DNA from: Nitrospirota bacterium
GTDB taxonomy: Bacteria; Nitrospirota; Thermodesulfovibrionia; Thermodesulfovibrionales; SM23-35
Direction: 5' to 3'
DNA length: 5,912 nt
Assembly (NCBI GenBank): GCA_018262395.1
Contig: JAGSYM010000080.1
Location: forward strand, 1-5,912
The translations under genes were made by a program, and so were the position numbers. How positions within the stretch are numbered: the stretch's first letter is position 1; each line of letters opens with the position of its first letter. The notes beneath the pieces are model-generated. The model was not told where the DNA came from and made no database searches. It saw only the letters and a list, made by a program, of their open reading frames with translations. Shown piece after piece: positions 49 to 4,801 of the stretch.

Positions 49-297
49 TCATTTCTTTTCCATAACCGCTTTCTCAATATCCTCCAAGGTTGGTTCTGCG
101 CCAAGTAATCTGTCATCTACGGCTATATTGGGCGGCTTAATGGTATCCCCCCTGTGGCCAAAACCGAGGAAACCTGAATACACTATTTCTACTTCTACAT
201 CATCGGGATATTTTTCTTTGACTCTCCCGGCCAAAGCACAGAGATTGGTTCACCGTTTTCCGGGAGGGCGGTTGGAATAAATCTTGATTTTAATCAT
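49..297 (-). CDS. Thioredoxin-fold selenoprotein with in-frame UGA (possibly SaoT)
   Basis: I read this as an 82-residue redox protein with selenocysteine at codon 16. The ATG at 295-297 lies just behind the arsR stop and has a consensus ribosome site. From it the frame reads MIKIKIYSNRPPGKR, then TGA (250-252), then TNLCALAGRVKEKYP and on to a TGA stop at 49-51. The layout is that of a small thioredoxin fold: strand beta1 (residues 2-7), a redox loop with U16 and C20 (UxxxC), helix, strand (VEVEIVYSG), a PPNIAV segment carrying the expected cis-proline before the next strand, and a C-terminal helix (TLEDIEKAV). A conventional gene finder would start at the internal TTG (codon 22), which has no ribosome site and loses beta1 and the active site. 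The ArsR-linked, GFLGFGHRG-containing small protein recalls SaoT of the proposed SAO organometal neighbourhoods. That name is from memory and unconfirmed. The alternative is a Cys-to-stop nonsense mutation. Confidence 0.8.
223..252 (-). promoter_or_regulatory. Sec UGA codon with candidate bacterial SECIS hairpin
   Basis: The UGA is at 250-252. Five bases downstream (minus strand) a 5-bp stem can form, UCUCU (240-244) with GGAGA (223-227), enclosing a 12-base loop GUGCUUUGGCCG. Bacterial SECIS elements lie directly 3' of the UGA and carry a G/GU-containing apical loop, so the position fits. The stem is short and the structure is inferred by eye, so the hairpin is much weaker evidence than the protein architecture. 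Confidence 0.4.
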
Positions 298-304
298 GGT
301 GCTT

Positions 305-311
305 CACCTCC
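305..311 (-). promoter_or_regulatory. Shine-Dalgarno site that fixes the selenoprotein start
   Basis: On the minus strand GGAGGTG (305-311) begins right after the first base-triplet of the arsR stop region and sits 7 bases before the ATG at 297. It is a near-perfect anti-16S match with good spacing. It supports initiation at 297, upstream of the in-frame TGA, rather than at the internal TTG at 234, which has no such site. The arsR stop (312-314) abuts it, so translational coupling is likely. Confidence 0.85.
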
Positions 312-653
312 TCATCTTCTTCGCTCTCCGGGATATACTCCCTTCTTTGTGACAGGACAGCACGCCGGTCTTGGAAGTGTGTCATAGTAATCCTTATTGA
401 GGAGTTCCAGGAGGTCAGGGATGAGCGCATTCACGAGAAAGTAGCACCTGAGCCTTCCGTCAATATAGAAGTCGATGATTCCAAAGTGTCTGAGCAGCGA
501 AAGATGTTGGGATATATTGGGCTGACGCAATGACAGAAATTCCTCAAAGTCACTCACGCACTTGACCCCCTTCACAAGCTCCTCAAGGATTCTGATTCTG
601 ACCGGGTGGGCTATAACCTTCAAAAGCTCCACTTTTTGTCCTAAAGAAAGCAT
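312..653 (-). CDS. ArsR/SmtB-family metal(loid)-type transcriptional repressor
   Basis: A 113-aa winged-helix repressor of normal ArsR/SmtB length. The N-terminal helices contain the family signature LLKVIAHPVRIRILEEL (10-26). The recognition region is RQPNISQHLSLLRHFGII (43-60), followed by the beta-wing DGRLRCYFL (65-73). Cysteines are at 32 (VKCVSD, close to the position of the ArsR alpha3 metal-site cysteines), 70, and a vicinal pair 98-99 (RPACCPV) in the C-terminal tail. A soft-metal, arsenic or organometal inducer is plausible but not shown. The start ATG (651-653) has GGGAGGT a few bases upstream. The gene is first in an operon with the selenoprotein (14-bp gap) and its promoter overlaps palindromic half-sites, so it is probably self-regulating. 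I see no truncation. Confidence 0.93.
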   Translation of the reverse strand: MLSLGQKVELLKVIAHPVRIRILEELVKGVKCVSDFEEFLSLRQPNISQHLSLLRHFGIIDFYIDGRLRCYFLVNALIPDLLELLNKDYYDTLPRPACCPVTKKGVYPGERRR

Positions 654-670
654 TTATACCTCCCACTTTA

Positions 671-716
671 ATATATTCTTATTATTGAATATATCAGCAT
701 TGGAATATATTTTCAA
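671..716 (-). promoter_or_regulatory. arsR promoter with overlapping operator half-sites
   Basis: On the minus strand a -35 TTGAAA (711-716) is followed, after 17 bases, by a -10 TATATT (688-693). Overlapping it is a perfect inverted repeat, ATATATTC (671-678) and GAATATAT (687-694), separated by 8 bases. A further GAATATAT occurs at 703-710 inside the spacer. Half-sites start at 671, 687 and 703. AT-rich imperfect dyads over the -10 are typical of ArsR/SmtB operators, so autorepression is the likely role. Confidence 0.75.
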
Positions 717-1016: not shown

Positions 1017-1805
1017 TCAGATGATAAGAAGTTTCATTATCACTTTTTCAGCTGTTTGAAAGGCAAATTCTTCAAAATATTGAATAATAGCTTCTTCAGA
1101 AAAAGAGACTGAACCATCTGCTTCGAGATAATTCTTGCTCAAAACACATTCAAGCTGCTCGTCCCCTTCATTCCATGGCATATTGAGAATAGACTCGATA
1201 TCCTGGCCTGACTTCACATATCTGATCGGGAGAAAAAGTTCTATATCGAACTTCTTCATAAATGACTGGTAGGCATCCAGAGATACCTTAATCTGGTTCA
1301 CTTTGAGCTTCCCATTGTGAGATTCTCTCTCCCCGCCAATGATCATAGTGCTATGAATTTTTTTAGCAAGGGGGACGCGCATTGCATGAAAATAGAAATG
1401 GCATCCGACACAGTGAGAATAAAAACCGAATTTTTTCATGAAATGTGTCGTGTACCTGCCGCACAACTTCCACCAGAATTTAGGCGATCCTATGATAACC
1501 GGATCAAAAAGCCTGATATTATCCCTTTGTAATCTGTCTCTTAGTACCTGTATCTTCTCGAAGGGGGTCGTCCAGTTGCCATATTCGGTACCGGTATATG
1601 CTACTGTCGGCAGAACCGCCGTGATCGTGCGAAGTTCACAGGCTCGGAGAACTGCTGCGATGCTGTCTCTCCCCGCAATCTCCGCTACAGCAAGGTTTTC
1701 AGTCTCCCTCATCTCACGAATTGCTGAAGGTGGGAGCATCCACTCAGGAAAATTGCTGATCAAATCAGGCTTGCTTACAAGTATTTCAAGAAGTTTCTCA
1801 TCCAT
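1017..1805 (-). CDS. PP-loop ATP-pyrophosphatase (alpha-hydrolase)-like protein
   Basis: A 262-aa protein that looks like a divergent member of the adenine-nucleotide alpha-hydrolase/PP-loop superfamily (QueC, TtcA, PAPS reductase and relatives), which adenylate a substrate before amination or thiolation. The N-terminal segment VAEIAGRDSIAAVLRA (40-55) matches a PP-loop (normally SGGxDS) with AGRDS at 44-48. It follows a beta-strand and precedes a helix. A CxxC-His cluster, CVGCHFYFH (132-140), could bind zinc or iron-sulphur, and IIGGERESHNGK (155-166) recalls the late nucleotide-binding loop of these enzymes. It starts only 6 bases after the ApgM-like gene and in the same frame, so the two are surely cotranscribed and perhaps coupled. 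No strong ribosome site is visible. The substrate is unknown. Superfamily assignment is fairly secure, and function is not. Confidence 0.82.
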   Translation of the reverse strand: MDEKLLEILVSKPDLISNFPEWMLPPSAIREMRETENLAVAEIAGRDSIAAVLRACELRTITAVLPTVAYTGTEYGNWTTPFEKIQVLRDRLQRDNIRLFDPVIIGSPKFWWKLCGRYTTHFMKKFGFYSHCVGCHFYFHAMRVPLAKKIHSTMIIGGERESHNGKLKVNQIKVSLDAYQSFMKKFDIELFLPIRYVKSGQDIESILNMPWNEGDEQLECVLSKNYLEADGSVSFSEEAIIQYFEEFAFQTAEKVIMKLLII

Positions 1806-1811
1806 ACTATT

Positions 1812-3110
1812 TCACAATTTCAAAGGCCTGTAATTACCCGGGTAATACGGCTGATCAACCGGGGTGTCCATAAGACCCTGCATTTTTGCCCGGTCGAGAA
1901 AGTTGAGGATCATATGCATCAATTCCTTTCCCTTTATGATACCGAGTGACCCTTGGGCACAGGCTATTTCATTAAAATAGCCAACCTCATCTCTTCTCAC
2001 ATACTTGCCAACCATGGTGAGAGGCACTGTTTCACCTGTATGTATCATACTGCCGGAACTTGCTGTTGAATGGTCTGCACTCACAACCAGCAGAATTTGA
2101 CTGTCAGGTATTATTTCATTGACAGCAACAGACATCGCACGGTCAACGGCTTCAATCACCTCTTTTTTAAACCAGGGATTTTTTGTATGGCCTGCTTCAT
2201 CAGGCATCTTTGTATGGACATGGACAAAATCATAATCGCGTGCATCCCTTGCATAACGTAAACGGTATTTCAGATCTTCCTCTATGTTTCCCGTATCTTT
2301 CACTTTTACTACATCCATCCCCAGTTCTTTACAGAGTCCCCAATAAATAGCGCCTGAAGAGATCGACAGGCCTCTCAAACCCCATTTCTCATTGAAAGAT
2401 TCCAACTGATTATATTTGCCTGGTCTCTGCGTAACAAGTGCATTTACCGACGGCTGGTTATGTGACATACGATTCTTGTTTACAGGATGTTCAGAAAGCA
2501 TGTGATTGCACCAGACAAGATATTTATTCAACGCATCTGAAGTATTTTTTGAAGATGTAAGAATGTTTTTCTGGAATGTCGGCACGACTGCAAGAACCGG
2601 TTTGCCCTCATAGATAGGATCTGAATCAGTTATCTTATCCGAAACCTCGCCATCTAAAATGATAAAGCCATCAATACCGTTCGAGGTGATAAGTCGGATT
2701 GTTATTCCATCTGATTCAAATAATTCTATTGTTTTCTTAAGCGTTTCTGATTCCTCGTGTGAAATTTCGGGTCTTCCCCATCTGAGAAAAAGATTGCCAT
2801 CCCTGTTTTCAACACAGCACAGGTGACATAGTATAGCCACGTTATTATCTTTTAACGGTATCCCCTTCCCTTTAGCCTCAATATAGCCTCTTCCCGGAAA
2901 GTCTTCTCTTTCATACCCGAAGATGATAAAGTGAGCTGTCTCACTTGACATAGGAATGCCCTGCATCACCGTGTGATATAAGCCGTTCATACCTAATGAT
3001 GCAAGATGATCTAAATGAGGCGTATAGGCAGCATAAAGGGGTGTTTTACCCGAAAAACACTCCAGGCCTCTGTCTCCGATTCCATCCAGGATCACTAAAA
3101 TGCAGCGCAT
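1812..3110 (-). CDS. ApgM-type cofactor-independent phosphoglycerate mutase-like protein
   Basis: A 432-aa alkaline-phosphatase-superfamily protein of the archaeal-type 2,3-bisphosphoglycerate-independent phosphoglycerate mutase family, about the usual length. It opens with the metal-binding strand CILVILDGIGD (3-13; Asp9). GKTPLYAAYTPHLDHLASLG follows. The catalytic-serine segment is PMSSETAHFIIFGY (53-66), where typical ApgM has GSDxAHL..LGY, making Ser56 the likely phosphoserine. GRGYIEAKGKG (73-83) corresponds to the conserved GRGPFEA. The second metal cluster shows HVHTKMPDEAGH (297-308; Asp304, His308), SADHST (344-349; Asp346, His347) and HTGETVPLTM (357-366). All metal ligands seem present. 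The changes GSD to SSE and the lack of the usual glycolytic context leave room for a different phosphonate or phosphosugar mutase. The ATG has no Shine-Dalgarno site. It is first in an operon with the PP-loop gene. Confidence 0.88.
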   Translation of the reverse strand: MRCILVILDGIGDRGLECFSGKTPLYAAYTPHLDHLASLGMNGLYHTVMQGIPMSSETAHFIIFGYEREDFPGRGYIEAKGKGIPLKDNNVAILCHLCCVENRDGNLFLRWGRPEISHEESETLKKTIELFESDGITIRLITSNGIDGFIILDGEVSDKITDSDPIYEGKPVLAVVPTFQKNILTSSKNTSDALNKYLVWCNHMLSEHPVNKNRMSHNQPSVNALVTQRPGKYNQLESFNEKWGLRGLSISSGAIYWGLCKELGMDVVKVKDTGNIEEDLKYRLRYARDARDYDFVHVHTKMPDEAGHTKNPWFKKEVIEAVDRAMSVAVNEIIPDSQILLVVSADHSTASSGSMIHTGETVPLTMVGKYVRRDEVGYFNEIACAQGSLGIIKGKELMHMILNFLDRAKMQGLMDTPVDQPYYPGNYRPLKL

Positions 3111-3115
3111 ATATT

Positions 3116-3137
3116 TTTATACCACATACTATGTCAA
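3116..3137 (-). promoter_or_regulatory. Candidate apgM-like gene promoter, leaderless
   Basis: On the minus strand an extended -10 TGGTATAAA (hexamer at 3116-3121) ends 5 bases before the ATG at 3108-3110. A TTGACA is present at 3132-3137 but only 10 bases from that hexamer. At normal spacing it would point to ATATAT overlapping the start codon. Either reading puts the transcription start at or near the ATG, consistent with the missing ribosome site. Confidence 0.45.
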
Positions 3138-3177
3138 TTGCACTAATAGATATGCCCTATGTATTCTGATACTTTTA

Positions 3178-3220
3178 TTGACAATACTTATTTGACAACA
3201 ATTTATTGAGAACAAATAAT
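3178..3220 (+). promoter_or_regulatory. Candidate promoter of PHP gene, leaderless
   Basis: Two TTGACA hexamers occur at 3178-3183 and 3192-3197, within a TTGACAA direct repeat. The second is 17 bases from AATAAT (3215-3220, five of six to consensus), which ends 6 bases before the ATG at 3227. The predicted transcript would begin at the start codon. The first hexamer has only a weak -10 (ATTTAT, 3201-3206) at 17-base spacing. Confidence 0.5.
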
Positions 3221-3226
3221 ATACGT

Positions 3227-3817
3227 ATGAGAATAGACATGCACGTTCATACCCGTTTTTCTCCGTGCAGTATAATTCGAGTGCGGCAACTTTTAAAAAA
3301 AATTCAGGAGGCCGGTATAGATGGAGTTTGTATTACCGACCACGATACAACTGGTTCACGTTCTTTACTGCAAAGCATCTCTCATTCGTCTGGCCTGAGC
3401 ATCATCGTCGGGCTTGAATACACAACGATTCAGGGCGATTTTCTCATTTTTGGCCCTGTTGAACATATCCCTCAGGGAATGGATGCGAAAACACTTCTCA
3501 CATGGACAAAAGAACTGCGTGGCGTGGCCATTCCCGCTCATCCGTTTCGCAGCAGCAGGCCGGCTGATCCACAAATTCTTCCTCTTTTTGATATCATCGA
3601 GGTGCTGAACGGCAGAAACCAAAACTATGAGAATGAACTCTGTATGAATTGGATTAATACTAATGGGAGCAGCAAAAAATGCATTGGTGGAAGTGATGCT
3701 CATACGCTTGATGAAATAGGCCGGATAGTTACCGTATTTGAGAGGGATATTTATTCTTCCGACGACCTCATTCGCGAACTTCGGGATGGGAACTATACTA
3801 TCCAGCAGAGATATTAG
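3227..3817 (+). CDS. PHP-domain metal-dependent phosphoesterase
   Basis: A 196-aa protein of the polymerase-and-histidinol-phosphatase (PHP) superfamily, which hydrolyses phosphoesters with two or three bound metals. The conserved blocks come in order: MRIDMHVHTRFSP (1-13; His6, His8), ITDHDTTG (36-43; Asp38, His39), VGLEYTT (61-67; Glu64), PAHPFR (103-108; His105) and GGSDAH (154-159; Asp157, His159). It is shorter than the YciV/TrpH-type nucleotidases (about 280 aa) and has no polymerase or other fused domain. An in-frame TTG at 3206 would add 7 residues. I chose the ATG because PHP proteins typically begin MRIDLHVHT and because neither start has a ribosome site. It is divergent from the ApgM-like gene and convergent with the small gene ending at 3839. 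The substrate cannot be read from sequence. Confidence 0.92.
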   Translation: MRIDMHVHTRFSPCSIIRVRQLLKKIQEAGIDGVCITDHDTTGSRSLLQSISHSSGLSIIVGLEYTTIQGDFLIFGPVEHIPQGMDAKTLLTWTKELRGVAIPAHPFRSSRPADPQILPLFDIIEVLNGRNQNYENELCMNWINTNGSSKKCIGGSDAHTLDEIGRIVTVFERDIYSSDDLIRELRDGNYTIQQRY

Positions 3818-4620: not shown

Positions 4621-4691
4621 CATCTTGATGCTCATAATTCCAAAAAATGGGTCCATTCGTAAAAAAGTTGAAAAGCATCTAAGGAGAAGAA

Positions 4692-4801
4692 TGTCTGGAT
4701 TCCCGCCTTCGCGGGAATGACGAAAACAAGCATTTAAGAATGTCATTCCCCGACTTGCTTGCCCGCCGTTCTTTTGGAGGGATCGGGGAATCCAGGATGT
4801 C
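4692..4801. repeat. Two head-to-head copies of an interspersed palindromic repeat
   Basis: Copy A (4695-4721) starts CTGGATTCCC and ends GGGAATGAC, with an internal hairpin TTCCCGC (4700-4706) to GCGGGAA (4711-4717). Copy B (4742-4795) is inverted: GTCATTCCC at its left end, GGGAATCCAG at its right end, and an internal 9-bp pairing ATTCCCCGA (4745-4753) to TCGGGGAAT (4783-4791). The whole pair can fold on itself. This CTGGATTCCCG...CGGGAATGAC element is a common intergenic repeat in many environmental bacteria, recognisable when translated as HSREGGNP. Copy B has a longer insert than copy A. I see no transposase or clear target duplication. Confidence 0.85.

Follow-up and report, generated by a model that had tools for sequence, protein, structure and literature searches.

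Positions 1–5,912 of contig JAGSYM010000080.1 from a Nitrospirota bacterium (GenBank assembly GCA_018262395.1), the 5,912-nucleotide stretch referred to below as the window, carry on the minus strand a frame (297..49) that in all likelihood codes for a selenoprotein of the TsoC kind, 82 residues long and with a thioredoxin fold, in which an in-frame TGA is decoded as selenocysteine (Sec) and which may serve an ArsR-controlled sulfur or electron relay. The frame consists of an ATG, 15 sense codons, the TGA (252..250), 66 further codons and a TGA stop, and its predicted product is MIKIKIYSNRPPGKR-U-TNLCALAGRVKEKYPDDVEVEIVYSGFLGFGHRGDTIKPPNIAVDDRLLGAEPTLEDIEKAVMEKK, with Sec as residue 16. The evidence for Sec decoding, for the fold, for the replacement of a CxxC active site by Gly and Sec, and for the linkage to ArsR is comparative.

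The UGA of this small thioredoxin-like protein is very probably read as selenocysteine in these Nitrospirota bacteria. A scan of a genome collection revealed four loci of close relatives (L001–L004), in metagenome-assembled genomes (MAGs) titled Thermodesulfovibrionales, Nitrospira or Nitrospiraceae, with identities to the window protein of 80, 81, 78 and 55% over the best segment, the last value belonging to L004, whose frame is shifted by an NN assembly gap. TGA occupies codon 16 in all four, each time behind a ribosome site, and the recurrence of the same frame, motif and TGA in all the relatives found is more than chance would produce. The segments YSNRPxGKR before the TGA and TNLCALAG after it are identical in the five DNA copies apart from x.

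When the window protein was searched against 395 genomes from the same phylum as G001, 19 had a match; those in G289 and G283 (L029, L030) seem to be unrelated frames and were kept out of the family. With the TsoC model, matches were found in 45 of 390 genomes, one of them (G027) in an unrelated frame. Sixty family sequences (rows) were collected and two were dropped, the G027 frame (L095) and the gapped piece L004. In the 58 rows kept, codon 16 is without exception either TGA (45 rows) or a Cys codon (13 rows). By genome (48 in total), selA was found with 35 Sec forms and missing with two, while five Cys forms had it and six lacked it (one-sided Fisher p = 8.5e-4, which is optimistic since the rows are related). 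SelB, SelA, SelD and tRNA-Sec were detected over cut-off in the genomes of all four close relatives, with SelD partial in G003. The window itself gave no match in an Rfam scan, and no trace of tRNA-Sec was seen at positions 600–1100.

Decoding of the UGA by SelB, tRNA-Sec and a hairpin after codon 16 is strongly supported by these comparisons. For the bacterial selenocysteine insertion sequence (SECIS), section 5 of PMC13188914 specifies a loop of 3–9 nt, a stem of 4–16 bp, a G in the first two loop positions, a spacing of 16–37 nt and a minimum free energy of -7.5 or lower. The window hairpin, taken alone, falls within these limits, with a 7-nt loop (CGGGAGA), a 7-bp stem, a spacing of 20 nt and an energy of -7.5 for a 35-nt piece. 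Within the window clade the hairpin is nearly invariant: 6 of the 8 amino-acid-invariant codons in 21–28 are also invariant in nucleotides, compared with 13 of 47 outside that range (one-sided p = 0.016). Across the family, a TGA is followed by higher stem scores than a Cys codon is (p = 1e-4, again optimistic for related rows). In one TGA clade of 23 sequences a stem of five pairs is intact in 114 of 115 cells, with both sides changed in 12; none of 500 shuffles reached its pairing, its covariation score or its count of double-change cells, and about 41% remained paired when the partner was slid by one. The number of pairs with double changes (reached by 87 of 500 shuffles) and of further pair types (418 of 500) did not exceed the shuffles in this clade. 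Its seven Cys relatives form the loop-closing pair in only two cases; the hairpin decays in Cys forms.

A preliminary description of this DNA, which gave no strand, had counted the codons of the frame correctly and placed it beside arsR with a good ribosome site. Its proposal of Sec read-through agrees with the hairpin, with the sel genes and tRNA-Sec of the four relatives' genomes, and with the occurrence of TGA or Cys in every row, the alternation that it had suggested looking for.

The assignment to the thioredoxin-like fold is based on a profile alignment, in which the family profile matched PDB entry 1ilo at an E-value of 3.7e-4, and on VIA-align, which agrees; Foldseek alone found no match for the predicted model at E ≤ 0.001, and Pfam none for the window protein at E ≤ 0.01. 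The thioredoxin order beta-alpha-beta-beta-beta-alpha was found together with a putative cis-Pro in the pair P55-P56, P56 being the sole invariant column when 60 rows, truncated database copies among them, are aligned. In the profile alignment Sec takes the second Cys position of CxxC, at the start of helix 1, and Gly the first; the clade motif is NRPxGKRU, with GxxU (GKRU) as its active-site part. Since the first Cys is Gly and Sec stands at the second position, the protein is predicted to be a one-selenol redoxin, neither CxxC nor CxxU. The fold and the Pro-Pro pair announced in the preliminary description were thus borne out, while its UxxxC pair of Sec16 and Cys20 stood only in part: it is present in the window, and Cys20 is kept in all five DNA copies of the clade, but Cys20 is Tyr in the database protein P0003 and other residues in distant members, and UxxxC was rejected as a catalytic pair typical of the family.

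The only selenoprotein model matched by the 82-residue product was TsoC (NF045708), with 25.8 bits versus a cut-off of 45 (28.8 for L001 and 26.9 for L003). TsoA, TsoB and TsoC are listed in PMC13188914, in which Tso denotes a three-selenoprotein operon and the name is credited to Haft and Tolstoy 2025 (doi 10.1128/msystems.01417-24). The window protein shares with TsoC its small size, the thioredoxin fold, Sec, the NxPxGxxU motif, an ArsR-type gene upstream and, in the four close relatives, an adjoining TsoB. It differs in having NRPxGKRU for NEPxGxxU, with Glu replaced by Arg and the GxxU part retained, and in its position on a tree of 57 rows, where the window clade (4 rows, support 100/98) has a long branch of its own, separate from the canonical NEP group and from the other groups; the tool attaches a warning to this placement about the small number of columns and the meeting of long branches. 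A further difference from the TsoC operon is that TsoA was over cut-off in none of 49 genomes, with weak matches in four, none of them G001–G004. Because of the sub-cut-off score, the different motif and the tree placement, the protein is named TsoC-like and not TsoC; it represents a divergent clade of TsoC-like proteins (NRPxGKRU) encoded in an ArsR-linked operon, a branch of a recently named family and not a wholly new kind of protein. No account of this clade came up in a literature search on TsoC, SaoT and Nitrospirota selenoproteins, which says little, as that search did not cover the original Tso paper. Besides its window-type copy, G004 also has, following a second TsoB-like fragment, a TsoC with the canonical NEPxGxxU motif (L076, G004:C398).

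Filing of the protein with SaoT and organometal handling, as initially proposed, was rejected as the best reading on account of the missing SaoT match and the TsoB neighbour. SaoT (NF040730) is likewise a thioredoxin-like selenoprotein, but its motif is UxxC (PMC13188914) versus GxxU here, and the neighbour in the relatives is TsoB (NF045694); the SaoT model was not among the matches at E ≤ 0.1, its presence in the library not having been checked. The same fold is seen in the MTH895/ArsE family (TIGR00412; PDB 1ilo), whose model is matched by 15 of 60 aligned members of the window's family, though not by the window protein itself; at the position of the Gly of the window's family, the thioredoxins 1fo5 and 1nho carry Cys, and Sec takes the second position here.

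In L001–L004 the unit comprises ArsR, the TsoC-like gene and a TsoB with the motif UDGLTU, to which DsrE (L001, L003, L004), TauE/SafE (L001, L004) and VTT-domain genes (L001–L003) are added in various orders; Pfam matches over cut-off in L001 are DsrE, TauE, rhodanese, DsbD and VTT. TsoB is a rhodanese/DsbD/thioredoxin fusion with UxxxxU, scoring 838.8 in L001, 840.7 in L003 and 847.9 in G002 (cut-off 805), the L004 copy being cut by a contig end. It adjoins the TsoC-like gene in all four relatives, and the window ends before that place. Of the 58 rows, 37 have an ArsR homologue on the same strand within 1.5 kb and three have one on the opposite strand, while TauE lies within that distance in 21, counts that are lower bounds because many loci are short. 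The palindrome ATATTC-N6/8-GAATAT precedes arsR in the window and in all four relatives, and the TsoC-like gene is probably co-transcribed with the four-Cys ArsR repressor.

A sulfane-sulfur or thiol relay is favoured over organometal handling because of the rhodanese, DsrE and TauE neighbours. The window ArsR also matches BigR (47.4 bits, below the cut-off of 155; TsoR, at 29.4 bits, is also below its cut-off). BigR is described as a repressor responsive to sulfide or sulfane sulfur (PMC5823870), as are the ArsR-type repressors sHdrR and SoxR (PMC12423496). A thiol-reactive signal, sulfane sulfur or persulfide being the likeliest, would release the repressor, and the selenol would relay sulfane sulfur or electrons with TsoB. 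One could tentatively hypothesise that in this unnamed TsoC-like clade the attacking Cys has given way to Gly, with Sec at the resolving position, the protein and the double-Sec TsoB forming a sulfane-sulfur relay under ArsR control in which the former is a single-selenol carrier.

The main rival, somewhat doubtful though possible, is that the same selenoprotein handles thiophilic metals or metalloids (arsenite, mercury, organometals), with Sec binding the metal and ArsR sensing it. It is suggested by the cysteines of the ArsR-type regulator, Cys32 and Cys70 being conserved in 40 of 40 sequences and Cys98 and Cys99 in 39, and by the family members resembling MTH895/ArsE; many distant members also have a Cys directly before the conserved Pro. 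The window clade, however, has PP and not CP at this place, its neighbours are of the sulfur type, and the scan of neighbours in L001 and L003 detected no match to a metal-resistance pump or a MerB-like family.

It is very unlikely that the TGA is a true stop, with a functional protein of 61 residues starting at TTG and the upstream codons serving as a leader. The databases would seem to say so: of the 125 proteins found when codon 16 was entered as Cys, 120 were listed, and 118 of these, the window's own open reading frame (ORF) among them, are 61–73 residues long and lack the active site, as had been predicted for standard gene calling; all ten short copies fetched start at codon 22, the TTG, which is invariant in the five DNA copies. 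Two of the short copies (P0029, P0055) carry the Joint Genome Institute name translation elongation factor EF-1beta, a probable misannotation. However, this TTG codes for Leu22, within the predicted helix 1, and it is the ATG that has the strong ribosome site; the flanks of the TGA are unchanged between copies, and distant homologues have Cys for TGA in one continuous protein. Reassignment of TGA to Trp is highly improbable: among the matches listed two full-length proteins have Trp at codon 16 (P0002, P0003), as do P0125 and P0127, but TGG occurs there in none of the 58 rows, TGA serves as the stop of the gene in both the window and L003, and P0003 has a second Trp where L001 stops, as expected from code 4, so that these four copies, read from proteins only, are probably code-4 gene calls on short contigs. 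A sequencing error or pseudogene, which a frame interrupted by a single TGA might suggest, is equally improbable given the same TGA in four other MAG loci and 45 of 58 rows, with the hairpin after it, in independent assemblies.

Several observations weigh against the interpretation as a Sec-decoded TsoC-like relay protein, beginning with the Trp copies and the relatedness of the rows. Codons 2–15 vary in amino acids (0.19–0.25 nonsynonymous changes per site versus 0.2–0.6 synonymous), a point that also favours the true-stop explanation. When 60 nt from the TGA are folded whole, the lowest-energy structure is a different one (-9.2), and the window hairpin scores only 1.8 standard deviations above mononucleotide shuffles; its near-invariance in the window clade means that covariation is seen in another clade only. 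The exchange with Cys is limited to distant clades with 20–34% identity to the window protein, two Sec-form genomes (G088, G221) have no selA match, and the sel genes of the window's host are presumed from its kin. The window ends 48 bases past the stop of the TsoC-like gene. TsoB was found at E ≤ 1e-100 in only 5 of 49 genomes (the four close relatives and G371), and over cut-off only in G001–G003, which makes the pairing a trait of the window clade, not of the family at large. Finally, the proposed sulfur role is read only from the neighbours.

Table 1. Features of the window discussed in the text.
Feature	Position	Strand	Details
TsoC-like selenoprotein gene	49..297	-	stop TGA at 49-51; sequence, models, relatives
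In-frame TGA, codon 16, predicted Sec	250..252	-	TGA in 4/4 close relatives; TGA/Cys in 58/58 family rows
Ribosome binding site GAGGAGGTG	305..313	-	7 nt upstream of ATG; overlaps arsR end; from sequence
61-aa ORF from internal TTG, without active site	49..234	-	standard code-11 ORF call; database copies
Bacterial SECIS-type hairpin CTTTGGC-CGGGAGA-GTCAAAG (21 nt)	216..236	-	starts 13 nt after TGA, loop at 20 nt
ArsR/SmtB-family repressor, four conserved Cys	312..653	-	HTH_metalloreg 65.3 bits, cut-off 55
Putative ArsR operator ATATATTC-N8-GAATATAT	671..694	.	upstream of arsR
262-aa protein, invariant GRDS, CxxCH, GxRExH	1017-1805	-	predicted fold, mean predicted local distance difference test (pLDDT) 82.6

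The 262-aa protein has no Pfam or NCBIfam family over cut-off, and its predicted fold matches PP-loop ATPases (YcfA at E 2.1e-7, QueC, TrmU/MnmA, TtuA). Its gene was found in 3 of 16 genomes searched; in G002 it adjoins tRNA-Sec and selB, and in G001 it lies in a stretch with selB, tRNA-Sec, selD, yedF and a cysteine-desulfurase/SclA-like gene. It may be a sulfur- or selenium-transfer enzyme. The block at 1017–3817, with the 262-aa, phosphoglycerate-mutase-like and PHP genes, is syntenic with these selB and tRNA-Sec stretches (L100, L101), and arsR and the TsoC-like gene occupy the side where G001 and G002 have selB and tRNA-Sec. A 71-aa ORF at 764–979 on the plus strand, between arsR and the 262-aa gene, may be a gene remnant, and an inverted-repeat-like stretch seen by eye at about 4690–4800, GGATTCCCGCC...GGGAATCC, is possibly a small mobile repeat.

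The clade is a group of selenoproteins stored in databases mostly without their active site; gene-finding programs tend to miss that site, and the current TsoC model scores the clade under its cut-off. With this clade the Tso system reaches a lineage in which TsoB stands beside a different TsoC-like protein, without a recognised TsoA. The rhodanese, DsrE and TauE neighbours turn the function of Tso into a concrete, testable proposal, which, if true, would mean a selenium-based reactive-sulfur system in Nitrospirota.
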